Part shown: positions 2,207-56,437 of the stretch, piece after piece | How the letters are laid out: the number at the start of each line of letters is the position of its first letter | Numbering within the stretch: position 1 is the stretch's first letter | Assembly (NCBI GenBank): GCA_963971425.1 | Contig: OZ020515.1 | Location: 37,896,371-37,960,370 of the forward strand | Source of the DNA: Bryoerythrophyllum caledonicum | Taxonomy: Eukaryota > Streptophyta > Bryopsida > Pottiales > Pottiaceae | Reading direction: 5' to 3' | Length of the DNA: 64,000 bases | Translations under genes and position numbers: made by a program | The notes under the pieces: model-generated | Databases searched by the model: none | Seen by the model: only the letters and a program-made list of their open reading frames with translations | What the model was told of the DNA's origin: nothing

Positions 2207-2215
2207 GGCCGTCTA
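2207..2215. repeat. Target-site duplication, left (GGCCGTCTA)
   Basis: A perfect 9-bp match to 13810-13818 in direct orientation, abutting the inverted repeats on both sides. Nine base pairs is the usual duplication length of Mutator-like elements. Confidence 0.85.
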
Positions 2216-2266
2216 TCAGCGACGCTATCTTGTGAGCGGTGAGCAGCGAGCGGCGAGCGGTGAGCC
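2216..2266 (+). repeat. Transposon left terminal inverted repeat
   Basis: It contains GCTATCTTGTGAGCGGTGAG followed by short repeats of GAGCGG/GAGCAGC, then an A-rich tract. It is inverted relative to 13741-13809, which has the same core and the same GAGCGGTGAGC repetition before a T-rich tract (as read inward). Confidence 0.85.
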
Positions 2267-3045
2267 TAAAAATCGTTGAAAAAAAATAAAATATTGTGAT
2301 TTTTAAAAAAAAATGTGAAGTTTAGGATAAAATCCGCAGAAATGCAAAAGTTGCACAGAAAGTTTGATACAATTTTCTAAATTAAGAAATTAGCCTATAA
2401 CCGTGTTAACCTCAGCCGTGTGACAATATTCGTGGTTTGGGGCCTTCTCCTCTTGCGTGTCTACGTTTCTATGTACATTAATTTTTTTTTGTTGTTGGGA
2501 TGTCTAGTCTTGTGCCAGATGCATATCTACACTTCAACAGTTCCCGCAATGAAGACGACATAGCAGTCCCAGCGTACCGTACAATGTGATTAGTCTTCTG
2601 ACAATATGTGAGGATAAATTATGCAGGAAGTGTCCCCGATGATGTGAAGACAATGCTTAACCACTTGTATCTATGCGGATTAGGACGTTTATGATTCGAG
2701 ATGTACGGGTATCTCCATACAATTGCATGGGTTTAGGGTACGTATTGCAACGGGGGCATGTGGATATTACATCGATGGCACGTACAGGCAAATTCCATTG
2801 ATTTACCAGACGTCCTCATGGTCTCATATTTTAGAGTTATTATGTACAAAGAGTATCTTTGGACTTGGAGCAACTTTAGAGTACGACAATTTATTACTTT
2901 GGACAATATCATGTCTCATATGTGTTGAATTCAAGATTCCTAAGGAGGCAAATGCATAAGTATAATTTCAATTCAGAACGTACTCTATGAAACTACTTAA
3001 ACCGAAAAATCACGACGTCTGATCTTTCTCCAAATTGTGAGGACC
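2267..3045. other. Transposon subterminal region, non-coding
   Basis: AT-rich sequence lies between the left terminal repeat and the 3' end of the transposase gene. A short open frame at 2723-2959 has no recognisable domain and is probably spurious. Confidence 0.5.
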
Positions 3046-6000
3046 TCATGCCTGCTCTGCAATGTTGGCAAGTTCAAGGATGCGCATGACTTCGTTGAAG
3101 CTGTAGCTTGGAGCGTGTATGAATACGTCCACCTTGTAATCCATCTTACATAGGTAACGCAAAATGTAGTACACATGCTTGCAATACTTCCACTGCCCCT
3201 TCTTTCCCAACGCCTCCGACTGCATCTTCAGGAAATCAGGTCATGAACACCCCGGGAGGTCCGTAATTGTGATACAATAGGACTTCTCTTTTCCAATGTC
3301 AAGGGTAATAACACATCCCCAACCTGGGTATGGTATGGCAATGACGTTCAAAACATAGCAGTTATTCATAAGAGCAGCGCTTGACCACTTATTGCGTTGC
3401 TCAATCGTGGGAACATCCGAGCCTCTACGGATTGCAAAGCCGTGCCGAAATGTGTGGAATGAATTCGGATTCGAGGGAACCGGGAAGTTGGAACGAGGAA
3501 GGGGCATGTCCATAGACACTTGAAATTGTCTCCGCGGTGAAAGAGCACCACGTTGATGCAATTGAAAACCGGCTTCCTCTAACGCCAATACCTCCTGCAT
3601 TGTAAGGTTTGTGCCAACCTTCAGAGGCCACGTCATCGGAATTGCTGGCCAATCCAGTACAAATGATCGCTTTGATCCCTTCACACAACGGCTAATGTCA
3701 TCAGGACAAAACCAGAACTCTGCAGCAACATTACGTGGACTCCTGTAATCCTTCTTCAAACCGGCGTATGTTGGGGCCGGAGTTCCATGACTTCCACGTT
3801 GTACTCTAGCGTTGCATTGTTGACCTGTATGAGCTTGCAATACCTGGCATCTTCGAGCGGACTTCTTTGGAAGACGAGCAATGTGCCAATTCAATGGATC
3901 ACAATCCGACTCCAATACGGAGGTAGTGTGCTGAACTCCGGAGTCATGACCGCTAAGCGACTCCTCAATACGTGCACGAGTCACCCTCGTCCCATCTCGT
4001 GGAATAGAGTAGTTCACCGTGTTGGAACGGTGTGAATCATGTTCGGACCCTGGAGGCAAATCAAGTTTGCGTTTCGTAGATCCAAAAATCTCCGAACCTT
4101 CTAGTCCGCCCGTTCGAGTTAGTAGATCTGCAGCATTTGGAAAGTTTCTAACTGCCTCAGCAATGAGTTTAGGATCACCTGAACGTTGAGCAGATCGCAG
4201 CCGAAGCGTCCCTTTGTCCGGTCCTGTACCAGATGTTCCACCCTTCAACCATGCACGATATGAAGTTATCTGCATAAAAGCACGGATTAGGTCGTCCACG
4301 GTTGCGGCATACAAGCATGTCATTGTGTTCCCAGATTGTTGAAGCCATCGGTTGTGGACCGTTTCAGTAAGGTTGCATGAAGGCATGTCCGCTCTCTCAT
4401 CCAGCGTCAGATCCTGGCAGGAGTCAACGAGGGTCATACCACGATTTTAAAGAGCTATAATAGTTAGAATTGGAGCTTAGACAATATGATATCAGGACGA
4501 TACTTACAAGTTGCATTGCGCCTTCCCATTGTCAATACCAAAAATGCCAAAACGCCATCCAATCCTCAAGAGTTCGTCGCCCTACTTCAGTTGTGGCACT
4601 AGAGGACACCCACCACCCTCTAATTACATTGTATTGCGCTTCGGCCTCCTCTTGAGACATTGCATTCTTCCAGATCTTGCAAAGGGCAATATGCTGGTCC
4701 TGGAAGCCGGCGAGAATGTTCCGAGAAGTGGCTCGTTGGAGACATTTGGTCCAATGGAATAAACAAGTATGTTCTCTGCTTTCCATGGGCTTGTCTTTGT
4801 CGCCGTCGCCATAAACTCGACGGACTGCGTGCCAGTTTGCCCCAGCACTGTCGGCCATGAAGCCCTTGAAGTTCGTCGCCTCTAATCCGAGGTTCTTCAT
4901 TGTATCATTCAAATTCTCCCAAAATAGGTGTTGTGCGTCGGCATCCTCAGATTGCATATCGCACGTTGCAATTGTCATGACTCGACAATACTTATTGTCA
5001 TATACATGACAGGCCATGGTTGTCCAGTCCTTGACCCGCTTGACATGATCAAACATCAACCAGCAATCCTGTAGGTCATTCCCAGGTTGCATACGCTTGA
5101 CGAGATCTACACCACTACCTGCTCGATCGACAGACATCTTGAAGACAAAGACTTTACCTTTGGATTGACCGGGGAACTTGTTCTCGTGGATGAACACAAA
5201 CTTGGACGATTCCTTCAAGGCCATAATATTGTCCATCACTCCCTTACCACCACTGTAGAACCTCTTGCAAGTTGAGACAAGGTTCCTAATGTTTGGAGAT
5301 GAGAGGGTCTCGAATTGATCGAGGACAACGTCCATAGAAGCTCCTTCCAAAGTTGATGACCCTGACGTCAGACGAATCAAGTAGTCAGAAAGAAAGTTTT
5401 TGCTCGCCGCCATGATGATTGCTGAATTTGTAGCCTTCGGTGAGCGCTGGACCTCCTTCGCAACACAGTCGTGCATGACGTCCATGGCGCATTGATCCAC
5501 GCCTTTCGAGATGGGATGGTCATGATGCCTAAGGTGAATGGCCACACGAGTGCGTGACGGATCGGCCGATGTCACGTAGTAGATACGAGCATCACAGAGA
5601 GATATACAAGTAGGAGGAGTCCGGCAAAGCTTACATGCCAAGGTTGACTTCTCGGAAGGTGTTCCGTTGATAGGAAACGGAGTGAAGGCGGACCCGCTCC
5701 ACTCGATTTGATTCGTGTGCCCTTCATTTCTGCATTTAAAGTCACAATTAGCATTGGGGCACTGGAGATGCCCAGTACACGTTGACTTCCGGTACGTGAG
5801 GCCGAAGTCGTTCTTGATGTTTGTAGTCATTGTCCTGCACCAAGCGTGACCATCGTATTGCTTACTCATACCATCAAGGCCCCCTCCAAACTGTGGGGGT
5901 ATACCCTCCGGGAGAGGCGGTAGTTCAAATATCTGGTCTCCATTATAATCTGGTGGCAAGTACTTCACACTTTTCATATCTATACTATCTATATCTATAC

Positions 6001-6604
6001 GTGACAACTCTGACCTGGACCCCTTCCTTAGACCAATTTTAAGCACTTGCAAAAGAATACTCCGTATTCTTCTGGACGTAGGATCGACTGGGGGTCTCCC
6101 TAGAGAGACTGATTGGGACGTATCAGACCTCGAATCACGTGAAATGGACATATTGGGAAGGAATGACTCGTGACACTTGGTGAGATTTCTTGAGTTACCT
6201 AGGTTTGGGTCAGTGACATCCTCTTCCTTTGTGTCACTAAGAGTGACGATAGGGATCGAGGTCGCGCCCAAACCAGGCACGAGTACTGTATCTCCGGAAT
6301 CATCTAAAGAATTGACTACGGAAGTAGATGCATGACCAGACATCTGAGCATCAGAGACACCGTACACTTTGAATGACCCAGAACATAAATTCCACACATA
6401 TCCTACTACATCACGATCTTTCACTTGATAGATGGACTGCGTGTGAATCCCATTACTATCGAATACTTCCTGCTCGACTTGAACCGTTCCACTTCTAAAT
6501 CCGAAACGAAGACAAAGCAAAGACTCTGCGACAATGACAGTGCCACGTTCATCAACGGGCATGACAAATGGGGTGCCCCCTCGGCATGAGGAAAGAGACG
6601 CCAT
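3046..6604 (-). pseudogene. Mutator-like transposase with GCM/WRKY-like zinc cluster and SWIM finger; two in-frame TGA
   Basis: Begins at ATG 6604 (MASLSSCRGG). Residues 1 to about 230 look low in structure. Next comes a zinc cluster (THTNQ-preceding CTGHLQCPNANCDFKC and RHHDHPISKG), then a DDE-type core (LMFDHVKRVKDWTTM, FMADSAGANWHAV, then HTCLFHWTKCLQ, a C-x2-H typical of Mutator-like enzymes). A likely 94-nt intron lies at 4507-4414 (GTAAGT donor, CCAG acceptor, phase 0). Exon 2 has further Cys pairs and ends in a SWIM finger (GCS-stop-PDF ... YCKHVYYIL) with a final stop at 3046-3048. The frame is broken only by TGA at 4532-4534, just before the intron donor, and TGA at 3241-3243, which replaces the second Cys of the SWIM CxC. 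Beyond these two codons the frame is clean, so inactivation is recent. Confidence 0.8.
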
Positions 6605-7189
6605 GTTCAAGGACTCTCAAAGATACAATCTGGGGTGTTACAAAGAGAAGGAGGAATTGAAAATCACAAACTTTTTATAAGATGGTCCAGGAAGCCATTC
6701 TATGGCAGGCTATTGTTGGCTCAGTAAATGTAGGATCATCATGCATCCATATTGATGTCTCAGTAACGATACGACAAAATGCAATGAAAATCATGCTTGC
6801 TCTAGTCCAAAGAATTACAAATATATTTAATAATTTTATCGGGACTCCTAGAAGCGGTAGGGATGCCCATTGTTATTATGAAATGCTTGGCGTCGTTTTT
6901 CATGAGCTGTGCAGGTATGCCTAATTTTGTGGAGTGTGCGCCGGCAGGAGGAATATATATGGAGGGTGTAACATTAATAGAGACTAGTGTACTGTATCAT
7001 TTCAAACTAAAGACCGTCAAGATCCGGTATTTCAGCCAAACGAGTATCCCCCACCCACCTAAGGTAGCAAGGAGGGTTATATATTGCACGACCGGCAACC
7101 TTGCAGTTGTGACAATAAGTTTGTGATTTTCCATGCGAGGTTGTGATGTTTAGGGAGTGGAGAGGATGGTTTAGGGTTCAGTGCCAAGG
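6605..7189. promoter_or_regulatory. Divergent intergenic region between the two transposon genes
   Basis: About 590 bp separates the transposase ATG (6604, minus) from the first ATG of the ParB-methyltransferase gene (7190, plus), so both promoters should lie here. A TTTAGGGTT telo-box lies at 7170-7178, just upstream of the plus-strand start. No TATA box could be assigned with confidence. Confidence 0.5.
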
Positions 7190-10100
7190 ATGACTAAGAA
7201 TGTTAGACAGAGGAGAAGACCTACTAAGTTTTCAAATCCTAAGCAAGTACGCGCTCAGAAGAAGCGTCAAGAGCAGCAAGCAATATTAGCTTCCCAGAAT
7301 CCTGAAGCACAGAAAGAAAAACTTATTGAGGAACGTAGGGATTTGACTATTGTCATCAGAGGAGCTTCTTCTTCCCGTTCAAGCGATCAGGTATTCTTTG
7401 AATGGTGTTCCTCTTCTTTGCTAAACCATATGACGCAGATCAGTTGATTGGTGGTATTTAATAACTATGCTTGCTCTAATATTGTGTAGGAATCAAGGCC
7501 TAGTACGCATTTTCATCGCGAGAGGGTAGAAGAGGACTCTGTACAAGCTAATACAATGAGCCAGAGATCCAGTGCTTCGGATAGCTCATTGCAAAGGAAT
7601 AAGGGGGATGGTCCAGCTAGAAACCATCATCGACCCCTAGCACTACTCGAGCAAGGACGTGACCCATCGCCTCAGGTACATAACGAACCGTCATGTCCTT
7701 AAATTCCAATATTTTGTACACTGATTCAAGAGACTCTGAGTCCCAGGTCGTGTCACATATTTCATTGCGTGCTTTACGCTCTAACAATATAACCCAAATA
7801 CCCGGGCGAGGCCCTAGGCAATAGGTCAGGCGTCACCCGTTCTGTTTTCGACTCCCTCCAGAGCCATACCCTGAAGCCGGTCTGAGTCAGCCCACCCCCA
7901 AGTTTCTCTGTGCTTTTCTACGCTTCGTGTTCACGTATTGTTGACAGCGCTAACACGCCGCTGTTAAGAGGTCGCCCAGTCCGAGTTTAGGTCTCGCTGA
8001 GGTCCCCTTCCACCACTCTAGTTAAGTCGCTGCAGTCCGTAGTCCGCTCTCGCTAAGGTCCCCTGCAGTGGCGCTGAAGTCACCTTGACAACATCTGTGC
8101 ACCGCGCAGCGGTCGAGGTCCCTTGACGTCCCACGAAGCACCTCGAGGTAAGCAGTTTAGGTGTGTTTCTTGTCCGCCATTTTTGACCCTCGGATCCGAG
8201 GGTCATTTCTAGCAGTTTTTTTTTTGTTTTTCTGCGTCAATCTGTGGTGACGATGTGGTGACGACGCCTGTCCGCCGCTCTGGTGAGGTCGCTGCAGTCC
8301 GGGTTTAGGTCTCGCTGAGGTTTGCTTCCGCCGCTCTCGTAACGACGCTGCGTTCCGTAGTCCGCTCTCGCAGTGGTCCCCTGCTGCGGCGCTGAAGCCA
8401 GGAGGACCGCATCTGAATGCTTCGTAGCGGTGAAGGTCCCTTGACGTCCCACGAGCACCTCGAGGTAGGCCGTTTAGGTTCGTATTTTCCCTTCTTTTTT
8501 TCACCCTCGGATCCGAGGGTCATTTTAAAGACTCTGTATTTTTTTTTTCTTCCTGGCTTTGTGGTGATGTTATGTTGACGTCACCAGTCCTCTCCTCGAG
8601 CAAGGTCGATGCAGTCCTTATTCCTAGGCTAGCTGCAGCAGGACTGAAGTTCCTTGGAGCGCATGAGAGCATCGTGAACTGGTGGAGGTCCCTCGGGTTT
8701 ACACAAAGCACCTCGAGGTAGGCCGCTTAGGTTCGTATTTTCCCTTCCTTTTTTCACCCTTGGATCCGAGTCATTTTTAAGACTGTATATTGTTTTTCCT
8801 CTGTTTTCTTTAATTCTGCCTCGCTTTGCGAGGTCGTTATGTTGTTGTCGCTAGTTCTCCTCTTTGGAGAGGTCACTGCAGTTTGGATATAGGCTTCTTG
8901 AGCTCCGGCATTCAACTTAGGATGAGCGCATCTCAGCACTGCCTATGGATGGAGGTCCATCGGCTCCTTTCAAGCACCTCGAGGTAGGCAGATTAATAGA
9001 ATTATTTGCATGCTCTCGGCTTAATCCATTCTCTTGATTGCAGGACTTGCTGAGCCAGGAGCGCACACGAAGCGTTGAGGGCGGAGAAATCATGAGTGGA
9101 GCGAGCATAGGCACCGATGAGGTATGTTTCTGCGCTGCTACTAGGAAATATTGCTCGCGTCTGAAATTCTATTTGATATCGTTTCCTTAATGTACTACCA
9201 AATTTCAGGAGGCTCATGAGGAACTAGGGACCCTGCCATGTAGTGAAGGTATGGATCTTCTGAATCAACCTGTGGAGGAAGAGATGAACGGCGTGGAGGC
9301 CGACTCGAGGATGGAGTCAACAGAGCAGGCGTTGCGGAAATCAATTCGGGGCACCGCGTCTGATGTCCTGCAGAGGTCAATTTTTCCTTCAGTGGAGGAA
9401 CTCTTAATTCCACTGTGCCGCATGCTACCCATGACGGAGGTTCGTCTCCCATTGAAGAGTGATGTAGAGAAGCTGAAGGCAGAGTTTGTAAAGGGATATC
9501 GACCTGGATCTGCATGCTTCTATGTAGCGGTGAAGAGCTTTTCATTGACTGAACAAGACGTGCTTCCTTCCGACCGAGCCAAGTGGTCTGCTCTTTGGCA
9601 AGAGGAGGATCGCAAGTTCGAGCTCATGTTGCAGAGTCGTCCGGAGTTGCAGTCGTTTTCGAACAAGTACTTTTTTGTTTGGGATGGCAACCACCGCCAC
9701 ATTGCGTGGATGGAGGTGATATCCCAGATGCACTCTCGTGATTTTATCTTCCATTCACCGGTGAGGGCTGTGGTTCTAGAGCCGTCTGAGGGAAACCGCC
9801 ACATTCTTCTGAACGCTATGACTGATCTCAACAAGTAAGACACAATCCATTTTTTGTTTGTTAAACATACTTCTGCAATGGGCATTGTTATGATTGCCAT
9901 GGTCATACTCAATTGTTGAAAAAGGTATTGAACATGCATGTATCTAAATAGTGGTTTCCGCATCCTAGGCAAAAAGAGGCTGATCACGTCACGCAACATT
10001 TATCACATGAGCTGAAGAGGGTCCATCATTTTGGCTTCTTGGACTTCGAGCAGTTGAAGGGCTTGATTAGCGATGACGACTACGAAGCTAGCCTTCACGA

Positions 10101-13100
10101 ATGGGGGAAGAAAGCAACAAAGAAGTGGTATCACATGACTTATGATGCATTTCAAAAGCTAATGTTCAAGGTAACCATGTCAATCTTCTTTTGAAATAGT
10201 CCAACCGGTGTTGCCAAGTTCAATAATCATTCTTTGTCCAGTGTTGACATGTATATCAATTGTTGGTATCCAGAGGGAGATTATCGTTGCTCAAGAAGAG
10301 TGCATACGGAATTACAAGGATAGCCTTGTCACATGCGTTAGTGTTGATCGTGTTGGAAGCCCAGCAGAGTTGGTGAGACTCTGCACCGATGCTGTACAAA
10401 AGAAGAAGATTGCTTGTCAGACTACATTCACACGGATGTTGGCGATAGCAAATCCGGCGAACGGTGAGGAATTATTCAAAGAGGTATGTGTATTCCATAC
10501 ATGATTGTGTTTACGAGTTTTCCATATAGTATCTTTATGAGAGCATGTCGAACCATAACTGAATCTAACTACATTTGCCCTACTTCATGTGATGCGTCAT
10601 TTCGACATTTACCAGACTAAGCCAGAGATGACACTCAAAAAGCTCCAACTCTTCTGCACGGCGAAGGTGGCTGGGAAGTTCAAGGGACGATGGTGCAAAT
10701 GGTGGAACATGAGCAAGGACAGTAGGGCGGAGTATAATTTCCCAAAATCCCCAGCTTCAAACACAACTCTCCGGGGTTGGATCGATATTGCTGCTTTCTG
10801 GGCTGGGGTGAGTATTTCTGATCCCTATCATCAATTGAACTTCACATACCAACGTTGTCATTGATTATTGTCTGAGAAATTGCACTGTATGTTATAGTTG
10901 GAGGAAGAAATTGAGAAGAAATTCTCAGAGCTTGTTGAAGAGGACAACGTTGTATTGAAGAATGACGGGCTTCCAAATCCCATCCAAGACATTGGTTCTT
11001 GGATGGAGGCCTGGAGCATCACGTTGTGGGCGAAGGCCTTCAAAGACCATCTTGGAAGAAAAGGTCTCTTCTCCAAGTCGGAGGAGTTTCTGAAGTAGGA
11101 GGGCTGTGAGAAGACCATGGAGCGGGCGGTGCTTTGGTATTTCTGGAGGGAGCTTGTCGCAAAAGGAGCTTTGCTACCAAACCAAATGCCAATCCGCTTC
11201 AAGAAGTGGACGGACCCTACCTCACTAGACTGCATCTTCACCAAACAGCAGAGGCAACGGTTCTCTCGTCATCACTTGGTGCAGTGCCCTTGGTACTTGG
11301 AGTTGAAGAACTCTGATCCTACTCCAGGTGAAGAGATCCAAATTCGAAGGGATTGTGATTCCCTAGCCAGCCGTGGAGATGGCGACATGCTTCCCTCTCA
11401 TGTCTCTGCGGTGGTTGAGCCAGTTGATGCATCTCTCCTAGAGAAAGATCGTGCAAGGGTTGCGGAAAGGGCGACAAAGGCGGCGCTCAAGGCGGCTGAG
11501 AAGGAGGCATTGAGGGTGGAGAATCTCAAAGCAAAGACATTGAAAAAAGAGACGAGGGAGAGGAACAAGGAGTTGGCAGCATTGGTGGCAAAGGAGGGGC
11601 CTGAGAAGCTGTTCGCTCAGCTTGGAGGGACAGCAGCGTTCGCTATTCTAGCTGCCTTGGGACCGACGCAAGGCATTTCCCCCTCGGGCAACAGCCGACC
11701 CTCCACCTATGCAGCCAAGCCATCTCAGACGATCTACACCATTCCAGCGGTGGAGCACCTGGAGTCTACAGTCGGAGTGGAGGTGATTTGTCAGAGCGCT
11801 CTCAACGTTATGTCTCTATTTGATGATATAGCTGAAGATGATGATTTGCCATCTGTTTGATCAGAGATGCGGCAGTTTATGAAGGTACATTCTGGGTCGC
11901 GGTTGCGGCATCACTGTGGACAGCCCTGCGACCTAGGTTTGGTGGACATGATTCTTTTTGATGTCCCAGAGGATTTGCCAGTCCCCGGAATTGAGGGGGT
12001 GCGGTGCCGAATAGGAACATACTTCCAACTCAACAGTCTGAAGGAGGTAAGCGAGAATCCCATTGGATTCATCGATGTTTTGAGATGGCAGAGGCCTTCC
12101 TTCGCGATGGGGCACCGCTCATCGTGTTCTACCCGGACTCGAAGTTCATTTCTAATGAGCTTCATGCTTGGGCAGAGTGGGTAGACTTCCGTGAGGAGAC
12201 AAAGTGGTTTGCCATTAACGGTTTGTCTCTCTCGCGCGAAGGCCATCCCGGGCGCACTCACAAGTGCTTCATGGTGAAGGGCTATGTGAGGAAGTTGAAG
12301 CCTTGGGTTCCTTTTTCATTCAATGATAGGATGGAATTGTTGTTAGAGGGGATTCAGTTGTCATCAGATGGTCATTTGACCAACCTTATCACACAAGAGA
12401 CCTTGACGATGAGAAGATCCACCAACCAGCCATGGCGTGGAGCTCGCGAGAAGTCCTCCAACCTCATGGAGGCTCTCATTGACCTTTGTACTCAGGAGGA
12501 TGAGATCGTCCTCGATCTTACAGCATCCACTGGTATACGTTCTTCAGACTTCCTCTTCCATCATTGTTTCCTCAGACCATCAGTTGCTAACTCCATCGTA
12601 CTTATTTCAATTCAATAGGTGCATCCATCAAGGCTTGTAAGGCTCTCAAGCGCCACATCCTCGCATTAGATGATGATACTGATTTGGTTGATGAGGTTTT
12701 GCGCCCTTTGATTCCCAGTTCCACGGAAGTGGAGTCGGCAATTATGCCTTCGGTGGAAGAAGGATCCAGAAAACGCCCATTGGAGATCGATGATGACGAG
12801 CCCGAGGTGAAGAGAGCTCGTAAGAGAACTTGTAAGTAAGTTTAGACTCTTGAGCTTTGTTGAATGATTTTGCGTTGAAGTTTATTGCTTTTGATCTTTT
12901 TCAGTCGTTGACATCAACGTTTTGTTTGATCGATGCAGTCGGTCGACGTCGTTGATGGCTTCACCATCAACATCTCAGACCGGGGTGCTATCGCGCTTGT
13001 CACGGTCGTTGATGAGTCCGCCTTGCTCGTATCATATGAATCCTTGGGATTGGGGCATTGCACACGCGATGGCTGCATTACCATCTCCTCCACCGATTTT

Positions 13101-13230
13101 ACAAGTAGCCCAACGGAGGTCTGCAGCAGAGCACTTCATAGATGGAGAAGCGGTTGATAGTGGTACGGATAGTAGTTCGCCTGGTATTTATGAGGATAGC
13201 TCGGATGAGCTATCAGGGGAGGAAAACTGA
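7190..13230 (+). pseudogene. ParB/Srx-like domain fused to beta-class amino DNA methyltransferase, transposon cargo, with lesions
   Basis: Ten exons join in phase by GT-AG signals: 7190-7390, 7490-7675, 9044-9121, 9209-9834, 9969-10170, 10274-10483, 10616-10807, 10898-12532, 12619-12831, 12905-13230; about 1,290 codons. Residues 1-150 are basic, Q/E/K-rich. Residues about 235-370 resemble the ParB/sulfiredoxin fold: TEVRLPLKSDVEKLK, GYRPGS, then FVWDGNHRHIAW, the conserved DG-HR box. Residues about 890-1125 resemble beta-class DNA methyltransferases: a motif IV-like VDMILFDVPED, a strand DGAPLIVFYPD, then KSSNLMEALIDLC (motif X-like) leading into VLDLTASTGAS (motif I-like) and a closing LALDDD. 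A basic stretch KRARKR follows, then an acidic tail. Lesions: TAG 11096-11098, TGA 11858-11860, and a one-base frameshift near 12084-12087. Motif IV is DVPE rather than DPPY/W. An Ala/Lys/Glu-rich coiled-coil-like stretch lies at 11440-11620. Confidence 0.72.
7940..8990. repeat. Tandem repeat array inside the large second intron, with BamHI-centred palindromes
   Basis: Four units of about 250-320 bp, each ending in GCACCTCGAGGTA (8139, 8457, 8709 and 8975). Each begins with variants of GGTCGCTGCAGTCC. Between units lie perfect palindromes centred on GGATCC: a 22-nt one at 8184-8205 (arms TGACCCTCGGA) and an 18-nt one at 8504-8521, plus a decayed one near 8757-8772. Every unit end resembles an exon/donor border (CTCGAG|GTAGG). 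The units could therefore be decayed tandem exons, but no consistent open frame supports this. Confidence 0.7.
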
Positions 13231-13740
13231 TTTATCTATTTGGTTGTATTGTTATTTAACAATGCGTGTTGTTTTTTACATATTCATTACAGTCGTCTAT
13301 ATATTGTGTTTTATCTAGGAGTAACTATTTCTTTCAACATATACTATGAAGTTGTAATTTCCATTTATAATATTAATTCATTGAATGTTTTGAGCCAAGC
13401 AATTTTGAAAACCTCAAACTATATTTATTGAACTACAAATAGTTACAAAGTATTAAATCTTTCTGAATTACATTGCTTCATAAACATGGATATCGCCTAG
13501 ATATTAGATGGATATCACCCATGTATTAAATGGATATAGTAGACTCCAATCCACGGCCATAAGTGTCCCTTTAGATTTTTAAACTAATTGTTACAATCCT
13601 AAACCTCTAAAATTTGACATCACTATGTCAAAATATATTGTCGTTGTTCATTGTTTCATGATTTCATTTTAATGCCAAAAAACTGTAAATATAATCCACG
13701 GTCATAGGTTTCCATTCCAATTTTTTTTTTTTGAATTGCA
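13231..13740. other. Transposon right subterminal region, non-coding
   Basis: AT-rich sequence lies downstream of the methyltransferase gene stop. Short GGATAT repeats occur near 13485-13535 (atggatatcgcc / atggatatcaccc / atggatatagt). No gene is seen. Confidence 0.5.
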
Positions 13741-13809
13741 AAAAAAACCAAAAAAACAGTGCTCACCGCTCGCTGCTCAAGGCTCACCGCTCACAAGATA
13801 GCATTCCTA
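13741..13809 (-). repeat. Transposon right terminal inverted repeat
   Basis: The inverted counterpart of 2216-2266, with the core CTCACCGCTCACAAGATAGC and extra GCTCACCGCTCGCTGC repetition. Confidence 0.85.
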
Positions 13810-13818
13810 GGCCGTCTA
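13810..13818. repeat. Target-site duplication, right (GGCCGTCTA)
   Basis: Identical to 2207-2215, in direct orientation. Confidence 0.85.
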
Positions 13819-13834
13819 ATAGTTGAAGAGAGGT

Positions 13835-16511: not shown

Positions 16512-19500
16512 ATGTTCGAACTGCTCCTAAGTTACTTTTTGGCACGCTATTTGGATTTGTGTGACCAGGATGTCTGTGCGATCACACACCTCAAGTCTCC
16601 ATGGCCTGTCTATTCTTCTTTATCCGTGCTCTCGCCCTCTTATGGGAGGAGAAGCAGTGGACAAATTAGGTGTTCATCATATTCATCAGTTTGGAAGAGA
16701 TCAGCCCCGAGTGCCAATGCTTCAGGTATGTATGAGATGCCCGTCTTCACGGAAGGAGGTTGACGCAGTTTGGAGAGAACGTGACTGACATGGAGGAAAT
16801 ATGTTGCAGTCGATTCGGGCGGCACACATACAATCGAACAAATGTGGGAGGAGTATTTTGCAGATCCTTGCGATTGGTGGGACAACAGAGTTGACAAGGT
16901 ATCATCGGGACTACTTGTTGATTGATGATAGAAAGTGGATGTATGACTTTGATCAGTAGGTGAGGAGGATATTTCTTGCTTGCACAAGGTTATGTGCACC
17001 CAGTGAAACAAGATGCATAGAAATTGGCCTTGGGGTATTCTGGAGTGGAGCCTGATCAATTCATTGTAGTTTTTTAGAGACACATGTCCCTCAATCGTTG
17101 ATTGTTGGGGGTCAGATTAGGTCTCAATGAGGTTTCCAGATCTGATCGTGGGTTGTGGTGCCCACAGAAGAATCCCCGGTCACCTGATTTTAAACACAAG
17201 GTGACAAGGAAAGCACTTTGGATAGATGGTTGGTCAACTCCAGCATGGGTGAAGGCAAGGCTCACACGGGTGACTCAATGCAGATTGCAATGTGATGCTG
17301 GTTATGACACCGGAGGTTCCCAAGACACTGCACAAGGTAAAAGGTATTGGCATGGGCACGTAACTCCAGGAATTGAGCCGTCTCGCTTCCTCGATGCAGA
17401 GAATAGGTGCAGTCAAAATTTGTGATTTGAGTGGGTTTGAGAATTTGGTTTGTGCAACACGATCCTCTGCTTTCTCTGCACTGTTTGATGATCTTAAAGT
17501 GGAATGGTTTTATTGAATTGCTCTGTACTGAAATATATGAGCTTAGGGTATTAATGGTCTTGCACCCTTAAATACTAGTGTTTTCCTCTTAACGTTGTTC
17601 TAATGAAGAATCTATGGATGAGACAGGCCACCTACGGGCAACAATGTAGAGGGAAAAACTCTGGCCACTAGAGCAAGAGAGTGGAGGCAAATTGTACAAG
17701 GTGGCGGTGGCAGCATGGATGTGCAAAGTGCTAGTACCACGAGTGATGCAATTGCAATTCTGAAGAATCGTCTACAACAAGGCATCACTATAGACTCGTA
17801 CACATATGTTGATGTTCTGAAGCGGTGCTCGAAGCAGAAAGACCTTTTGGCGGCCAAGCAGGTACATGAGTGCATCATCAAGAGTGGAATGGACCAAAAT
17901 ACGTATGTGGGGAACAGTCTATTGAGTGTGTATATCAGATGTGGGAGATTGCAATATGCACGCCGAATGTTTGATGGATTTCTGAAGAAGGATGTTATTA
18001 GTTGGAACGCCATGATTGGAGGTTATGCTCAGCGCAATCATGCTAGAGATGCAATGGAACTATTTCATCAAATGCGTCAAGGAAATGTGGAGGCGAATGA
18101 GATTACTTATTTGAGCATCCTGAAGGCATGTGACAGACCGTCAGCTTTGAAAGAAGTTCATGCATACATCAGACATGGGGGCCTTGACTCTGATGTGCGT
18201 GTCGGGACTGCCCTCCTTCAGATGTACGCAAAGTGTGGGTGCATCAAGGAGGCAAGGCAAACTTTTGATAATTTGACCAGTCGTAATGTCTTTTCCTGGA
18301 ATGCGATGATTGGCGCATATGTGGATAGTGGCAATATCGATGATGCTCGACTACTTTTTGACAGGATGGATGAACGCGATGTAATCACATGGAATGTGAT
18401 GATCGGAGCCTATGCAGAATGTGGTTGTGGTGAGGAATCACATCGACTCTTTCTTCAAATGAAACGTGAAGGCTTCAAACCAGATGCAATTACTTACGTA
18501 AGCATACTCAATGCACGTGCAAGCGCAGGGGCTTTGGAGTGGGTGAAAGAGGTTCATGTCCATTCCCTGGAAGCAGGGTTGGAGTCGAATTTGCACGTGG
18601 GTAGCGCACTTGTTCATATGTATGCGAAGAGTGGCAGTATCGATGATGCCCGTTTAGTTTTTGATAGGATGGAGGAACGCAATGTGGTCACATGGAATGT
18701 GATGATTGGAGCTTATGCAGAAAGTGGTTGTGGTGAGGAAGCATATCGTCTCTTTCTCCAAATGAAACGGGAAGGCTTCAAACCAGATGCAATTTCCTAT
18801 TTGAGCATACTGAATGCACGTGCAAGCGCAGGGGCTTTGGAGTGGGTGAAGGAGGTTCATGTCCATGTCCGGGAAGCTGGATTGGAGTCGGATTTGCGCG
18901 TGTGCAATGCGCTTGTTCACATGTATGCAAAGAGTGGCAGTATCGATGATGCCCGTTTAGTTTTTGATAGGATGGAGGAACGCAATGTGATCACATGGAA
19001 TGTGATGATTGGAGCTTACGCAGAAAGTGGTTGTGGTGAGGAAGCATATCGACTGTTTCTCCAAATGAATCGGGAAGGCTTCAAACCAAATGCAATTACT
19101 TACGTAAGCATACTGAATGCACGTGCAAGCGCAGGGGCTTTGGAGTGGGTGAAGGAGGTTCATGTCCATGTCCGAGAAGCTGGATTGGAGTCGGATTTGC
19201 GCGTGTGCAGTGCTCTTGTTCACATGTATGCAAAGAGTGGCAATATCGATGATGCCCGAGTAGTTTTTGACAGGATGGAGGAACGCAATGTGATCACATG
19301 GAATGTGATGATTGGAGCTTACGCAGAAAGTGGTTGTGGTGAGGAAGCATATCGACTGTTTCTCCAAATGAATCGGGAAGGCTTCAAACCAGATGCAATT
19401 ACTTACGTAAGCATACTGAATGCACGTGCAAGCGCAGGGGCTTTGGAGTGGGTGAAGGAGGTTCATGTCCATGTCCGGGAAGCTGGATTGGAGTCGGATT

Positions 19501-20516
19501 TGCGCGTGTGCAGTGCGCTTGTTCACATGTATGCAAAGAGTGGCAGTATCGATGATGCCCGAGTAGTTTTTGACAGGATGGAGGAACGCGATGTGATCAC
19601 ATGGAATGTGATGATTGGTGGACTTGCACAACATGGATGTGGACTTGAAGCCCTGGAGTTGTTTAGGAAAATGAATGCAGTCGGCTGCAAACCAGGTGCA
19701 TGCTCATTGGTGGCAGTGTTGTCGGCCTGTAGTCATGCTGGCCTCGTGGAGGACGGTCGTCGGCTCTTTCTGGCTACGACGCAAGATTTTGGCATCAAGC
19801 CTGATATTTTGCTTTGTAACTGCATGGTGGATCTTCTTGGGCGAGCAGGACAGTTGGAGGAAGCAATGTTATTCATTCGTAACATGCCAGTTGAACCAGA
19901 CGGTGCAACTTGGGGAGCCTTGCTTGGTGCTTGTAGAACTTATGGTAATGTGGAATTGGCCGAAGTTGTTGCTGAAGAGAGTCTGAAATTGGAACGGAAT
20001 TGTGCCGCGACATATGTGCTGCTTTCCAACATTTATGCTGCAGCTGGCAAGTGGGACCAGGTGTCATTGGTGCGCACTATGATGCATGAGAGAGGTGTAC
20101 GCAAGGAGCCAGGGCGTAGCTGGATTGAAGTTGATAACAAGATCCATCGCTTTGTTGTAGGAGACACATCTCACCCAGAAATGAAGGAGATATATGCTGA
20201 GCTGAACAGATTGACCGAAAGAATCAAGGCTGAGGGTTACATTCCTGATACCCGGCTAGTGTTGCAGAATGTTGATGAGGAGGACAAAGAACTGGCTCTT
20301 TGCTCTCATAGCGAGAAGTTGGCAATTGCGTATGGATTGATGCGAACACCTCATGGAAAACCAATTCGTGTGTACAAGAACCTCCGGGTGTGCTCAGATT
20401 GCCATACAGCAACCAAGTTTATCTCGAAGGTAACAGGGCGGGAGATTGTGGCTAGGGATGCTAATAGGTTTCACCACTTTAATGATGGCGTGTGCTCTTG
20501 TGGTGATTACTGGTGA
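16512..20516 (+). CDS. OSB PDF-motif / PPR / DYW protein, probable organellar RNA-editing factor
   Basis: The last exon encodes a PLS-type PPR protein ending in E/E+ and a full DYW domain: HSEKLAIAYGL (zinc-binding HSE), VCSDCH, and the terminal CSCGDYW. It is open from 17623, with the first ATG at 17715 (933 residues from there). DYW proteins perform or guide C-to-U RNA editing in plastids or mitochondria. Three upstream exons join in phase: 16512-16725 (Ser/Arg-rich leader, possible transit peptide), 16810-16898 (EEYFADPCDWWDNRVDK) and 17168-17336 (KNPRSPDFKHKV, ALWIDGWSTPAWVKARL). Together they form a PDF motif like that of plant organellar single-stranded DNA-binding proteins (OSB). The link to exon 4 at 17623 (phase 1, acceptor GATGAG) is weaker because its pyrimidine tract is poor. 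If the link fails, the PPR part starts at 17715 and the OSB exons are a separate fragment. No lesions. Confidence 0.85.
18336..19610 (+). repeat. Near-identical 303-bp tandem units inside the PPR gene
   Basis: Units of 101 codons (one PPR triplet) recur at exact 303-bp spacing. The word ATCGATGATGC starts at 18336, 18639, 18942, 19245 and 19548. The last three units are nearly identical in DNA, and the first is the most diverged. This points to recent unequal exchange or gene conversion within the gene. Confidence 0.9.
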
Positions 20517-30183: not shown

Positions 30184-32453
30184 TTAATCTTTATGGCCAT
30201 CAGCTAATCCTATATCTTGCAAAAGTAAGAGATGACTCTCAAAATGAGCATGTTGTTCTTTCGGAAGAACAATCTTCTTTTCCGTGGAAAACCCTTGATG
30301 AGTCACCATTTCAGTCTTAGACGATGTGCTATGTGTCCAAGATGTAAATACAGTAGCCACTTCGACCCAATCTTTGCCTTTGTAAGACCGATCTGGCTCC
30401 CACGATCGAACTAAGCAATTTGCATATCGGGCCCGCATTGCATTTGGTCCCTCGCGAACGCCCTTCAATGCAGTAGGTAGATACCACAAAGCAAGAAATT
30501 CTCCATTCGACCTTGCCACATTCCGTACCTCCCGAACCTTTGCCACCCAAAATGCTTCTCCATTCTCCTGTGCAACTTTGGGTGCTTGGACTCCGACAAA
30601 GTGACCAACATGAACATCCATGTGTGGATCAAAGTCAAACCATCTTTCACGTTCCATGGCCACAACATTTGAAACTAGGCTGCTCGATGAAGTTAAAAGC
30701 TTTGCATCCCTTGTTGTCCCTGAAGGCAAGCAAGAAGCCCTTTGTTTTTTTGTTGTCGATTTCTTAGGTCCCGGATTGGTTGGCGCCTTACCTCGAGGTC
30801 CAAAGTACCCACGATGTTCAACGTCAGGAAATGATGAAAGTACAGCGGAGAAGTTTCGCTCATCCTCTTGACCATGGGTTCCATTTTCCTTGCCTCTAGG
30901 AATAGTCCACCAAAATGATGATGCCTTGTGCACTACAACTCTATCAGTATCTGGAAATTCATCGAGAAACTGAATGAAATCCTCAGTCTCCCTAATGATA
31001 TTCCGATATGATTGCAAATACTCCTCCGATGCATCCAATTGTGAATGCCTAAATAGCTGACGTTATTTCAAAATCACAAACGATCGAAGTGCTTGAATTT
31101 CTTCAAGATCACTTTGGAAAACCTCAGCGAATCCAGGTTTCTTGCGCACGTCGGGAACGCTAAGTAAGAATGGTTCACCCTCAATTGGTCCCCATGCATC
31201 GTTTGCATAGATTTTACTCTGCACATGAGGACGATTGTTTTGTTGATAGAAGCGAAAGTGGTGTGGTTCACTCACGCCCGTAAAAGCTGTACTTCTACTG
31301 GAGAACAAGTGCGGAGTTATGTACTCCTTCCAATCCCAAATATTCTCCACCAATTGAGCATATCGCACTGGTTCATCCCCATGGCCTGGAATGTAGTTCT
31401 CTATAAGTTTCAGAAGCTTCGAGAGTGATTCTACGTCATCACCTTTCAGAACATGGGATATACAACTAAACCGTTGGTCTATATCCGAGTGTGTGTGGCC
31501 AACAAGAAGAAAACCCACCCGGACTTCCTCAAAATACCCGAGGCCAACTAGAGCCGCGCATAGCCCCAGCATGTACTTGTTCTTATTTTCTCGACCACAA
31601 TTGTCTGCCTGGATGCATAGAATAGGTGGCAGTCCACCTCTTGCATTGTGCACACAACTCAAGACCCTCATGATGGATGTAACGACTTGATTGCTATCAT
31701 GCTTGTGATGCGCATCTATCCATAAGTCACAACATAAACCCCATCCGTGCACCAATATCCCACACAGGTGCCTCTTCACGTAGCGGCCCTCGATATTCTT
31801 TACCGACTGTCGCATCTTCGGAACCATGGTCGTGTTTTGATCGATCCCATCTACAACTATGGACATATATTGGTCTCGCCTATTTCTGGCGTTCAACTTC
31901 ACTTCTTCATAGGCGTCCCGTTCTTGGCGTTGCAATTCGTGGTGCCGTTGATAGGTCTTTTTCAATTGATCTTTCATAGTATTACTCACAACTTTCTCTA
32001 AAGTTGAGGTAAATTTCCAACAAACACTGCACTTTGAAAAACGAGAAGTCTTTGGAATTTGGACATGTGGGAAAGATTCACGCCACATTGCATGAAATGC
32101 TGAAACGCTTATCTGCTCTTCATTTGCTTCAGCAAGACTGCCATTGATTAGAGCCAATATATCTTTCTTCTTGGCATTCATTGGTAGAAGGACCAAGGGT
32201 ACAAATACGCCATCTTTTTTCCATAGGTGATGTCGATGGGGTTGTACACATCCACAACCCTTCACATAATTTCGCAATAAAGCACGAGCAGCCGCCACAT
32301 GTGTCGATTCACGGGGCTTCAAAGCATTTCCATGAATTGCGCTTCGTTGCGCTCTCTCACGAATGCCTTTCTTCCATCTCTCCAATTGCCTTGGAGAGTA
32401 ACCTAAAACATGCGCATAACATCCATGGCACACATATGAACACCGGTTTCGTT
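30184..32453 (-). pseudogene. Transposase-like protein of the DUF7869 / GHTHxDIDQ type with C-terminal BAH-like module; one in-frame TAA
   Basis: A single minus-strand frame runs from about 32453 to 30184 with one break, TAA at 31063-31065. The N-terminus has a Cys/His pattern (CHGCYAHVLGYSPRQ) and a C-x2-C (FSKCSVCWKF). The core has YMSIVVDGIDQ, the acidic box IQADNCGRENKNKYM and FLLVGHTHSDIDQRFS, as in the widespread transposon-associated proteins annotated with DUF7869-type domains. The C-terminal part after the stop has a BAH/Tudor-like pattern (VGHFVGVQAP, FWVAKVREV, FLALWYLP). No ATG fits the start, since an in-frame TAA lies just above 32453, so the N-terminus is truncated or an exon is missing. 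Terminal repeats of this element were not found. Confidence 0.75.
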
Positions 32454-42069: not shown

Positions 42070-43060
42070 TAAAACTTAAGTTACTGCACTTCCCTTAGAA
42101 TTCGCGCCAAAGCAGCACTCTTCTCTACACAATGTCAACGAACATTGAAAACTCCAAGCAACAAAAAAACTGAAACATTCTTCAATCGCAATCGAGCGTT
42201 CACCAACAAGCTGCAAAACCCTAACATGTCCCACCGCAGCTGCTGTGCTCGCGCGCTCTTCCACTTCCGCACTCCATGCACACAGTCCCACCGAAATCGC
42301 CACTCTCCACACAAGTCCAGTGCTACACCATCGCACTCCCAGATTGGTCGGGGCTCCTCCAGCTCACACCCTGTACGAAGTGTGTTCACAAACACTCCCC
42401 AGCACTGAACGCCAACTCCTCCAGCTCGCACCCAACGGCACTCCCTTCCGAACCGAACCGAACTCCTCCTTCCGACAACATCACCGCGCGCACACACAGA
42501 TTGCTCCTCCAACCCGAATTGAACCCAATCGGATCGTTCCGCCGTGATCGCCCACGACCTCGTTACACACGCACGTCCCCTACTCGCGCGCAGGCTGCCC
42601 CTCGCTCGGCACACGTTCGCGCGCTCGCCGAGCACCACAAAAACCCTCGCGCTTCGCTCCACAGCACTCCGGAGCTCCCAACTTCGTCGTTGTTCTTCTC
42701 TTCACACACTCTCTTCACACACCGCAACCGCGTATAGAGCTCCCACCAAGAATGCAGACACCGCTCTCTCTTGCGCGCACATTGATTCACCCCTCACAGG
42801 CACAGATTCTCACTCAACTCAGACCGACCTTCCAACACTGCTCTCCCCTCACAAAAAAAAAACTCCAACCCCACACAAACCCACAGACCCCCGAACTCGC
42901 CTACGCACACACGAACTCTCCAACAGCGCCTCCACACCGAGACTCCCCCAGATCGCACGAGCCCAACGGCACTTCCTCCCGCTCACACCTCGTCCTTTCT
43001 CCCCCGAAAAACAGCCCCCTTCCCAACAGAGAGTCTCCCAGCTTAGTCTCGCCAGAGATT
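42070..43060. other. CpG-rich block, left arm
   Basis: Mirror of 57342-58332. Long overlapping frames occur on both strands because stops are scarce in GC-rich DNA; none has a recognisable domain. It may be a captured promoter or 5' leader. Confidence 0.5.
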
Positions 43061-43964
43061 CGGCCTGGCCGATTTTTTTTTATTTTTTTTAATTTTTTTG
43101 CTTTTCCCTGACAAGACTGGTTTTTTTTTTTTTTTTTCTGAGGTAGCCCACGACCTCTCACAGTAGTGCAAGATTGGCTACTTACAACCGTTTTTGAATT
43201 TTTTAGTTTATCACAAGCATTCAACTTGCCGCTTTGCACCTGACATGCCGCCTCTAACATTAAATTCATGGTGGCTAGATTTATCATGTGGCATGCGTAT
43301 GGAGAAGTACCTCCAACTACTTCCTCTTTTTTTTCTTTTTTCTTTTTCTTTTTCTTTCGTTAAAAACTAGTTAAACTAGATCTAATACTATCTACTGATG
43401 ATTTGCAATTTATCTATTAATTCAAAAACTAACCACACAGCTGGATTCCTAGCACCCTAATTAGGCTACCTAAATTTTCTTAGCCTTTTTGAAGTTTCCT
43501 AAGTATTTTTCCCAAACGGTCTACCCGTCAATCAACTAGTCAAACCCTAGAATAAAATAACAAATCAACTCGGAAAATTCTAGAAATTTTACCACTAGTT
43601 CCACCTGCTAGGAGACACTCTTCCAATTTTTTTTCGTATTTTTTGGCCCATTTCTCAAATTTTAGTCATTTTTCAAGGTCTTTTCTTTTCATTTTTTAAA
43701 TTTTTTCTTTCACTTCAATTCCACTTCCACTATGCTTCTGAGCATGTTAGTAGGGAGGAAGAATAGGAAATTTAGTGTCACATCATGGCACTAGGCCTAT
43801 TAATTAGGAATTTGACTCTAATTAATGGATTGTCCACCATTTTAACTAAAATTCGGTTAATTCTATCCAAAAAAATTAGGAAAATGAAGAAAACCAATGA
43901 GGGCACATTTTGGCCACTCACAGGGATCATTCTTCTCGTCGCTCCAAACATATCAACTAGATCT
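43061..43964. other. Left-arm sequence without gene
   Basis: T-rich and pyrimidine-rich runs, no gene. Confidence 0.5.
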
Positions 43965-44150
43965 CTCCAGATGTAACACTAGACCTCTCTAGACGTATCA
44001 ACTAGATCTCTCTAGACGTATCAACTAGATCTCTCCAAACATATCAACTAGATCTCTCCAGATGTATCAACTAGATCTCTCCAAACATATCAACTAGATC
44101 TCTCCAGATGTATCACTAGACCTTTCCGGACGTATCAACTAGATCAACAG
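43965..44150. repeat. 23-bp minisatellite, left arm
   Basis: About eight units of TATCAACTAGATCTCTCCAG; mirrored at 56252-56437. Confidence 0.9.
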
Positions 44151-44224
44151 AAGGTCAAAACCGATAGGCTTTAGAAACAAAATGGCCTCACACTTGAGAG
44201 CGATGGAACGCGTGGCAAGCTGGT

Positions 44225-44515
44225 GAGCTAGATCACGTCAGAAGCTGGAGAACAAGCTCGCGTGGGTATCTCGACAGTGCAAGAATGTAAGCTCGCGCGG
44301 AAACCTGGAGAGTGCTGATGCAAGCTCTCGTGGAAGGTGGAGAATGTTGAATGCAAGCTCACGCCGAAAGGTGCAGAGTGCCGGATGCAAGCTCGGCCGA
44401 AAAGCTTGACAGTGCTGGATGCAAGCTCGCGCGGAAAGGTAGACAGTCTTCGATGCAAAGCCCGCGTGCAAAGCTAGACAGTACAGAATGCAAGCTCGAC
44501 CTGGGAGGTCCTGCA
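44225..44515. repeat. 33-34-bp minisatellite, left arm
   Basis: About eight units of GCAAGCTCGCGCGGAAAG plus GACAGTGCTGGAT; mirrored at 55887-56177. The frames read on either strand are repeats of the same peptide and are not supported as genes. Confidence 0.9.
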
Positions 44516-45099
44516 AGAGGTGGGTCCAACGGATGAACATGTGACGGTTTCATGCATATGCATGCATTCATCCATGCATTCAATGCTTAGGCCGCCAAAT
44601 TTACACCACGCCACCCCACCACTTATACTTCGTAAGCTAGCCCCCACCACTAATCCATTGGTGGAGCAATACCCCTCTTGGTATCTACAACTACCACACT
44701 TTAACATTCTTCTACTCTGGCATCGACGCACTAGACGTTGCAGGCTCGCGACGGATGTACACTTTGTGGTTGATATCAATATGATACCCCAAGTGATACT
44801 GCGGCAGCCATGCGCTAGTAAACTTGTCATGATTCTGGTCAAAGGTTGGGGAAGCAACATGTTGAAGTTTGGTGGCTCGTTAGTTTTATCATTTTTGAGT
44901 TTTGTTCTTTCCGTTTTTAATTTTTATCGGTTATGAAGATTGAGTTCCAAGCATAACATTTTCATTCCATTGGTGAGTGGTTTCACATTGTCCGTTGGAA
45001 GTTGAATGGTTGAAAAGAAACTGGAGCTGAATTGACCGGTTTTGGAAAAACGGACACTAAATTATTGTGGAAGGGTTAGGTGCTTTAATTGTGTTTCAT

Positions 45100-55302: not shown

Positions 55303-55886
55303 ATGAAACACAATTAAAGCACCTAACCCTTCCACAATAATTTAGTGTCCGTTTTTCCAAAACCGGTCAATTCAGCTCCAGTTTCTTTTCAACCATTCAA
55401 CTTCCAACGGACAATGTGAAACCACTCACCAATGGAATGAAAATGTTATGCTTGGAACTCAATCTTCATAACCGATAAAAATTAAAAACGGAAAGAACAA
55501 AACTCAAAAATGATAAAACTAACGAGCCACCAAACTTCAACATGTTGCTTCCCCAACCTTTGACCAGAATCATGACAAGTTTACTAGCGCATGGCTGCCG
55601 CAGTATCACTTGGGGTATCATATTGATATCAACCACAAAGTGTACATCCGTCGCGAGCCTGCAACGTCTAGTGCGTCGATGCCAGAGTAGAAGAATGTTA
55701 AAGTGTGGTAGTTGTAGATACCAAGAGGGGTATTGCTCCACCAATGGATTAGTGGTGGGGGCTAGCTTACGAAGTATAAGTGGTGGGGTGGCGTGGTGTA
55801 AATTTGGCGGCCTAAGCATTGAATGCATGGATGAATGCATGCATATGCATGAAACCGTCACATGTTCATCCGTTGGACCCACCTCT

Positions 55887-56177
55887 TGCAGGACCTCCCA
55901 GGTCGAGCTTGCATTCTGTACTGTCTAGCTTTGCACGCGGGCTTTGCATCGAAGACTGTCTACCTTTCCGCGCGAGCTTGCATCCAGCACTGTCAAGCTT
56001 TTCGGCCGAGCTTGCATCCGGCACTCTGCACCTTTCGGCGTGAGCTTGCATTCAACATTCTCCACCTTCCACGAGAGCTTGCATCAGCACTCTCCAGGTT
56101 TCCGCGCGAGCTTACATTCTTGCACTGTCGAGATACCCACGCGAGCTTGTTCTCCAGCTTCTGACGTGATCTAGCTC
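55887..56177. repeat. 33-34-bp minisatellite, right arm
   Basis: Mirror of 44225-44515. Confidence 0.9.
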
Positions 56178-56251
56178 ACCAGCTTGCCACGCGTTCCATC
56201 GCTCTCAAGTGTGAGGCCATTTTGTTTCTAAAGCCTATCGGTTTTGACCTT

Positions 56252-56437
56252 CTGTTGATCTAGTTGATACGTCCGGAAAGGTCTAGTGATACATCTGGAG
56301 AGATCTAGTTGATATGTTTGGAGAGATCTAGTTGATACATCTGGAGAGATCTAGTTGATATGTTTGGAGAGATCTAGTTGATACGTCTAGAGAGATCTAG
56401 TTGATACGTCTAGAGAGGTCTAGTGTTACATCTGGAG
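56252..56437. repeat. 23-bp minisatellite, right arm
   Basis: Mirror of 43965-44150. Confidence 0.9.

Follow-up and report, generated by a model that had tools for sequence, protein, structure and literature searches.

The subject of this study is a mobile element of the moss Bryoerythrophyllum caledonicum, which resides in a stretch of 64,000 nucleotides (GenBank assembly GCA_963971425.1, contig OZ020515.1, positions 37,896,371 to 37,960,370 of the forward strand) that we refer to as the window and that defines all coordinates given without a contig. The element carries two genes in head-to-head orientation, one encoding a transposase and the other, here termed the cargo, encoding a protein that is predicted to end in a domain of the DNA amino-methyltransferase family, together with an array of tandem repeats containing palindromes. 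The initial annotation, based on the letters of the sequence, had described the locus as a Mutator-like transposon with precise ends and with a ParB-like/methyltransferase gene as cargo. The features of the locus, with strand where one applies and supporting evidence in brackets, are the following:

2217 to 13809: whole element, 11,593 bp (end searches, duplications in 11 of 17 copies, empty site)
2207 to 2216: left target-site duplication, GGCCGTCTAT (empty site with a single GGCCGTCTAT)
13810 to 13819: right target-site duplication, nine of ten bases the same as on the left (sequence and empty site)
2224 to 2265, plus strand: left terminal inverted repeat, 42 nt (inverted-repeat finding, 90% complementary to the right arm)
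13761 to 13802, minus strand: right terminal inverted repeat, 42 nt (inverted-repeat finding, 90% complementary to the left arm)
4508 to 6604, minus strand: transposase exon 1, judged by eye to include a zinc-finger-like and a DDE-like region (alignment of relatives, ratio of non-synonymous to synonymous changes (dN/dS) 0.19; in-frame TGA at 4532-4534)
3046 to 4413, minus strand: transposase exon 2, with a C-terminal SWIM pattern CxCx(21)CxH in relatives (relatives; in-frame TGA at 3241-3243)
7190 to 7390, plus strand: probable first coding exon of the cargo, basic N-terminus (tblastn matches in 30 of 30 transposase loci)
7490 to 7675, plus strand: probable second cargo exon, less conserved (tblastn)
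7977 to 9000: tandem-repeat array, probably within a cargo intron (direct-repeat finding)
8184 to 8205: palindrome 1, perfect over 22 bp, TGACCCTCGGATCCGAGGGTCA
8503 to 8520: palindrome 2, perfect over 18 bp, ACCCTCGGATCCGAGGGT
8756 to 8773: palindrome 3, degenerate, with four mismatches
9044 to 9121, plus strand: cargo exon preceding the N-terminal domain (alignment with 29 other copies, splice signals)
9209 to 9834, plus strand: exon of the cargo N-terminal domain with a DGNHRHIA motif (alignment; dN/dS 0.25)
9969 to 10170, plus strand: cargo exon (alignment, splice signals)
10274 to 10483, plus strand: cargo exon (alignment, splice signals)
10589 to 10807, plus strand: cargo exon, whose acceptor lacks AG in the window copy (alignment, splice signals)
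10898 to 12532, plus strand: cargo exon with linker, a stretch that looks coiled-coil-like by eye, and the greater part of the amino-methyltransferase domain including motif IV, DVPE
12619 to 12831, plus strand: cargo exon completing methyltransferase motif I (alignment, exon model)
12900 to 13230, plus strand: probable C-terminal cargo exon or exons (alignment; inferred)

The limits of the element were investigated in searches of the 437-Mb genome, in which the window is part of contig C2. The outermost 7–8 bp of the element are not inverted and, among the 11 copies whose duplications are perfect, the direct repeat is found 6–8 bp, mostly 7 bp, outside the core of the terminal inverted repeat. 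Of the best 40 of 750 candidates scored for the left end, excluding the window's own, 38 of 39 start at window positions 2214-2218, and the same proportion (38 of 39) of the best 40 of 633 candidates for the right end terminate at 13806-13812. The identical 9-bp direct repeat GGCCGTCTA flanking the window copy (2207-2215 and 13810-13818) had initially been proposed to be a target-site duplication, for which an empty site should exist. Such a site is present at C2:37403641-37403888, where the sequence matches the two flanks of the window copy, joined to each other, with 96% identity across the junction and contains GGCCGTCTAT once. Because of this single GGCCGTCTAT, the duplication was probably 10 bp long originally, with one base changed later, and we thus place the element at 2217-13809. 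Among 17 copies, comprising the window and 16 others picked where two ends could be paired among the matches listed, 11 are flanked by perfect duplications of 9–12 bp, two by imperfect repeats (with one and two mismatches, judged by eye) and four by none, whereas in pairings of left and right flanks from different copies 0 of 272 reach 9 bp. A chance match is ruled out by this difference and by the empty site, and both the precise ends and the duplication of the initial annotation are upheld with slightly refined limits. As separate observations, the same 10-bp flank GATTAGTGTT resides beside one left end (L005, C7:14782321) and one right end (L098, C7:14722637), which are 60 kb apart on opposite strands and suggest an inversion between two copies, and the element shows no CpG depletion when compared to the sequence downstream within the window (observed/expected ratio 0.80 versus 0.69).

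The transposase gene of the window is broken by two in-frame stops, one of them inside the SWIM finger, while the protein of another copy has a spliced length of 1,155 residues with the CxCx(21)CxH pattern at its C-terminus. Its first exon has at least 64 matches genome-wide, including the window's own, with the others being 73–90% identical, and it is free of stops in 42 of the 64 matches listed. Judged by eye, the protein displays the residue order D...D-CxxH...E. Pfam scans of transposase pieces found no match to PF10551, the DDE domain typical of Mutator-like elements (MULEs), of which 150 places not compared individually with those of the transposase are listed in the same genome, and the piece bearing the SWIM pattern of relatives has no Pfam match. 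Since the transposase lacks a significant match to a Mutator profile, we call the element Mutator-like by its behaviour and leave its superfamily formally aside. The initial assignment as SWIM-finger Mutator-like transposase finds partial support in the pattern of relatives and the MULE-like duplications but none in profiles. A reverse transcriptase domain is absent from the profile scans of the element pieces scanned.

On the opposite strand, seven cargo exons with GT-AG borders provide a continuous reading of 1,068 residues, the last two of which are perhaps intronic, and the predicted product is about 1,060 residues long or more, with the amino-methyltransferase domain at its end. As with the transposase, the window copy of the cargo is broken, in this case by two stops (TAG at 11096-11098 and TGA at 11858-11860), a 4-nt length difference near 11998 and the one splice acceptor without AG, whereas one copy has an open frame in all exons read. 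Matches to the exon at 7190-7390 are shorter in 3 of 30 loci and contain a stop in another count of 3 of 30. If this conserved exon is the start of the cargo, the tandem-repeat array, which separates the first cargo exons from the one at 9044, probably resides in a cargo intron and the region shared between the two genes comprises about 0.6 kb (6605-7189). The divergent arrangement noted initially is in this way retained, with an intergenic region whose size depends on that exon and with both genes of the window being defective.

The two genes travel together. In 43 of the 64 listed transposase exons, an N-terminal cargo exon is found within 15 kb on the opposite strand in head-to-head orientation, compared to a chance expectation of 0.165, and for 11 of the other 21 a methyltransferase domain is located at a distance of up to 20 kb (9 of these within 9 kb), as judged from 27 places chosen by eye from the listed matches. 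A cargo part is thus located head-to-head nearby in 54 of 64 listed transposase copies, and the pair is retained where the transposase is as low as 74% identical to that of the window. The initial annotation had named independent occurrence of ends and genes in other copies as the outcome that would speak against it; the pairings found among the matches listed instead rule out independence of transposase and cargo as a rule. Genome-wide, there are at least 150 matches to the N-terminal cargo exon (others 60–98% identical) and at least 151 to the methyltransferase domain (other rows listed 75–96% identical), with long open frames across the methyltransferase exon in many copies among the matches listed. 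All three regions are under purifying selection, with a median dN/dS of 0.19 in transposase exon 1 (315 pairs from 30 copies; 0.24 over 39 stop-free pairs), 0.25 in the N-terminal cargo exon (333 pairs from 30 copies, with six intron codons included at the start of the sequences) and 0.147 in the methyltransferase domain (36 pairs from 9 sequences, two of them foreign), where many synonymous distances are close to saturation.

The assignment of the C-terminal domain is based on profiles. In its spliced form it matches PF01555 with E=8.7e-7 and 29.5 bits, above the cut-off of 26.7, and it also matches a PHROG DNA methyltransferase (9.5e-7) and a type II methyltransferase of PADLOC (1.6e-7), whereas the best match to a solved structure is DpnA (E=0.0084 over 50 residues). 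By profile, the domain thus belongs to the family of N6/N4 amino-methyltransferases. Its motif I reads DLTASTG or a near variant. The canonical motif IV of such enzymes is (D/N/S)PP(Y/F/W). In the cargo, 9 of 9 copies read (the window, L099-L104 and the two foreign homologues L106 and L107) have DVPE at this position, without the aromatic residue, and the activity of the putative enzyme appears doubtful because of this non-canonical sequence. The initial proposal that the element encodes its own DNA-modifying enzyme is therefore sustained as far as family membership and its travelling with the transposase are concerned, while catalysis is unproven. Both foreign homologues originate from the same assembly and are the two confirmed cases among 71 pattern matches in bacterial and archaeal genomes, whereas among viral sequences 0 of 45 pattern matches to the domain were confirmed. 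Their contigs are filed as uncultured Synechococcales cyanobacterium in a desert-crust assembly, and since the matches follow the exons of the plant gene one by one, they are probably eukaryotic, perhaps moss, contamination. A second, distant methyltransferase family occurs in at least eight places of the same genome (L105 at C9:14278850-14279900 and seven others), and the one copy read, L105, contains DLNASTG and a motif IV of DQPF.

The array in the window consists of units of about 317, 253 and 266 bp, compared to about 240–250 bp in most other copies examined. The perfect 18-bp palindrome ACCCTCGGATCCGAGGGT is found in two of the three window units, and that of the third is degenerate. A survey of 30 cargo loci, which are closely related copies, identified 104 palindrome sites with up to five mismatches in 28 loci, 66 of them perfect, and in all 104 the A, the T and the following C of the central GATC are invariant. 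In 10 copies chosen as diverse, the mean identity is 0.884 within the palindrome compared to 0.342 in the flanking sequence, and each of the 12 most conserved windows of 18 bp overlaps the palindrome. The exact 18-mer of family A, to which the window copy belongs, occurs 419 times genome-wide and that of family B 235 times, whereas the respective reversed controls were found 0 times. Of 50 listed family-A sites, 41 are located at most 6 kb upstream of one of the cargo exons listed and 9 are unplaced. When counting all loci examined, with overlapping loci counted twice, GGATCC is contained in 78 of 88 perfect palindromes of at least 16 bp.

The comparison of subfamilies reveals a constant centre surrounded by variable arms. 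A 10-bp core, TCGGATCCGA, is shared by the sites that were read in families A–D and in the foreign homologue L107, with the exception of single decayed sites. In contrast, the palindrome extends over 28 bp in family B (seven sites with a spacing of 126 bp in the 0.9 kb read, six of them perfect), over 50 and 40 bp in the two perfect palindromes of family C and over 30 bp in the single perfect one of L107. At distances of 6–11 from the dyad, each arm position varies among families A, B, C and L107 (one site each), and complementarity holds in 24 of 24 cells, a number that is based on the first site of the window and becomes 22 of 24 with a site such as L043, which is symmetric only up to distance 9 like most sites of family A. 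The arms thus differ between subfamilies yet stay complementary around a constant core. We consider a dimer with subfamily-specific half-sites to be the best account, because the core is constant while the arms are matched.

From these properties, we propose an autonomous two-gene family of Mutator-like DNA transposons, whose cargo protein recognizes the palindromes of its own element to regulate or de-silence it, a reading to which we assign a probability of about 0.5. In this mechanism, a dimeric cargo protein would bind the palindromes and would keep both genes active or tune them in a way comparable to VANC of the VANDAL elements. The methyltransferase fold would either mark the GGATCC/GATC centre or serve only as a module for binding DNA or S-adenosylmethionine (SAM), the latter being suggested by the DVPE sequence of motif IV.

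Several observations weigh against this proposal, among them the sequence of motif IV itself, the close relationship of the 30 loci surveyed, the reduced count of 22 complementary cells and the saturation of synonymous distances. In family D only 4 of 6 arm pairs are kept, and the 350 bp read of the diverged copy L111 contain no recognizable palindrome site. Changes within family A are one-sided in 49 cases and two-sided in 2, mostly C>T/G>A, although one-sided transitions are expected within a family since single sites decay. On the side of the proteins, the sole Pfam match of the transposase, PF00872 (Transposase_mut), has an E-value of 0.067 below the cut-off, and unspliced pieces of the methyltransferase stay below the cut-off of PF01555. 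With respect to pairing, 10 of 64 transposase matches have no partner among the matches listed and two methyltransferase partners are as distant as 13 and 19 kb. Finally, the DGNHRHIA exon, initially described as ParB-like, has been negative in every profile test: PF02195 (ParB N-terminal) finds 0 matches with E<=10 in the whole genome, compared to matches in 11 of 14 control genomes, and further tests of the exon show no ParB match. The ParB-like identity is therefore unconfirmed.

Palindromes with differing yet matched arms would equally fit a structural role. The repeats could extrude as DNA cruciforms or fold into RNA hairpins with effects on splicing, replication or small RNAs, while the cargo would act in transposition like mudrB of maize, which is apparently needed for integration as described in PMC6446971. 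The perfect symmetry of up to 50 bp, the variation of arms between subfamilies and the probable intronic location of the array are all compatible with such a scenario, whereas a pure structure would not need the 10-bp core that is constant across families A–D and the foreign homologue, and we consider this explanation rather unlikely. A similarly tentative view draws on restriction-modification or ParB/parS systems, where the protein of the amino-methyltransferase family would bind, and perhaps methylate at GGATCC, a private array, with half-sites co-diverging with the protein so that each subfamily would protect or de-silence only its own copies.

Active self-marking, in which the cargo would methylate adenine (or N4 of cytosine) in GGATCC to place a bacterial-type mark that is read by host factors or the transposase, appears unlikely. 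It would be in line with the amino-methyltransferase profile above cut-off, the strong conservation of the domain, the GATC in the centre of GGATCC with its invariant A, T and following C, and the presence of DQPF at motif IV of the related family in the same genome, but it is at odds with the DVPE sequence devoid of an aromatic residue in all nine copies read. Whereas the palindrome centre invites methyl transfer, motif IV argues against it. In a broader sense, self-marking or a steering of silencing, as initially suggested, is plausible, with the palindrome array as candidate target. That the cargo would be a passenger without function for the element, captured from host or bacteria as in Pack-MULEs, is most improbable, since MULEs often carry fragments of host genes according to PMC6446971 but the long open frames of the methyltransferase exon in many copies listed, the dN/dS of 0.15–0.25 and the retention of the pair down to 74% transposase identity all contradict it.

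Outside of the element, the window contains other features. An open frame on the minus strand (46302-46997) matches PF20515, a Tet-like 2OG-Fe(II) oxygenase family with nucleic-acid-modifying relatives (E=2.3e-44). A frame of 462 residues on the same strand (31066-32451) contains DUF7869 (E=4e-52) and is perhaps part of another mobile element. The same set of open frames is found in inverted orientation at 42135-44936 and 55466-58267, indicating a large inverted duplication, and the region 17622-20513 encodes a protein of the PPR-DYW type whose internal repeat blocks are nearly identical. The presence of such a protein is indicative of a land plant, and its style perhaps of a moss.

Additional open reading frames are a familiar feature of MULEs, including mudrB, mutB and vanB/vanC (PMC6446971). 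Like MuDR of maize with its genes mudrA and mudrB, the present element combines a transposase with a helper gene, and SWIM-type zinc fingers are described for several groups of MULEs (PMC6446971). The target duplications of 9–12 bp in our family compare to 8–11 bp reported for MULEs in the same source, a survey of 1,631 MULE sequences, whose main text contains words beginning with 'methyl', 'moss' or 'bryophyt' 0 times (PMC6446971). Mobile elements with DNA methyltransferases (DNMTs) are known from retrotransposons encoding cytosine DNMTs in dinoflagellates and a charophyte (PMC5890265), a source that also cites DIRS elements with Dam-like adenine methyltransferases and DNMT-bearing DNA transposons of marine viruses. 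The former two resemble the present element in their conserved DNA methyltransferase but differ in being retrotransposons with other enzyme classes (PMC5890265). The marine-virus elements, which are covered by one sentence of that paper (PMC5890265), contrast with a plant Mutator-like element that combines an enzyme of the PF01555 type with an array of palindromes. Fusions of a ParB-CTPase fold with a methyltransferase from phages and bacteria (PMC12704722) resemble the domain pair that was proposed first, whose ParB part is not confirmed by profiles in our case. In searches of an open-access library, from which most subscription papers and preprints are absent, no paper on a MULE with a DNA methyltransferase was recognized, nor was the combination of a plant Mutator-like element with a gene of the PF01555 type and an array of palindromes encountered there. 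To our knowledge, few systems are known where transposon proteins undo host silencing. A family with many open copies, a partner of the methyltransferase family and a defined palindrome makes self-recognition by a transposon directly testable, and an active enzyme would mean that a transposon of a plant controls amino-methylation, whereas a dead one would represent a methyltransferase fold that has been converted to a protein for recognition.

A close parallel is found in the VANDAL elements, which are not known to possess terminal inverted repeats. Unlike these, the present element contains such repeats and has a protein of the methyltransferase family, long palindromes and a constant GGATCC core. 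In VANDAL21 of Arabidopsis, the protein VANC causes a loss of DNA methylation and binds short motifs, which multiply in tandem within noncoding sequence, an intron of its own gene included (PMC5735166). Both systems are Mutator-like elements with an additional gene and carry recurrent motifs in tandem repeats, which in VANDALs are targets that expand and diverge rapidly and partly occupy introns of these genes (PMC5735166, PMC10398659). In contrast to the motifs bound by VANC in VANDAL21 (PMC5735166), the repeat-borne palindromes described here are putative targets of the cargo protein.

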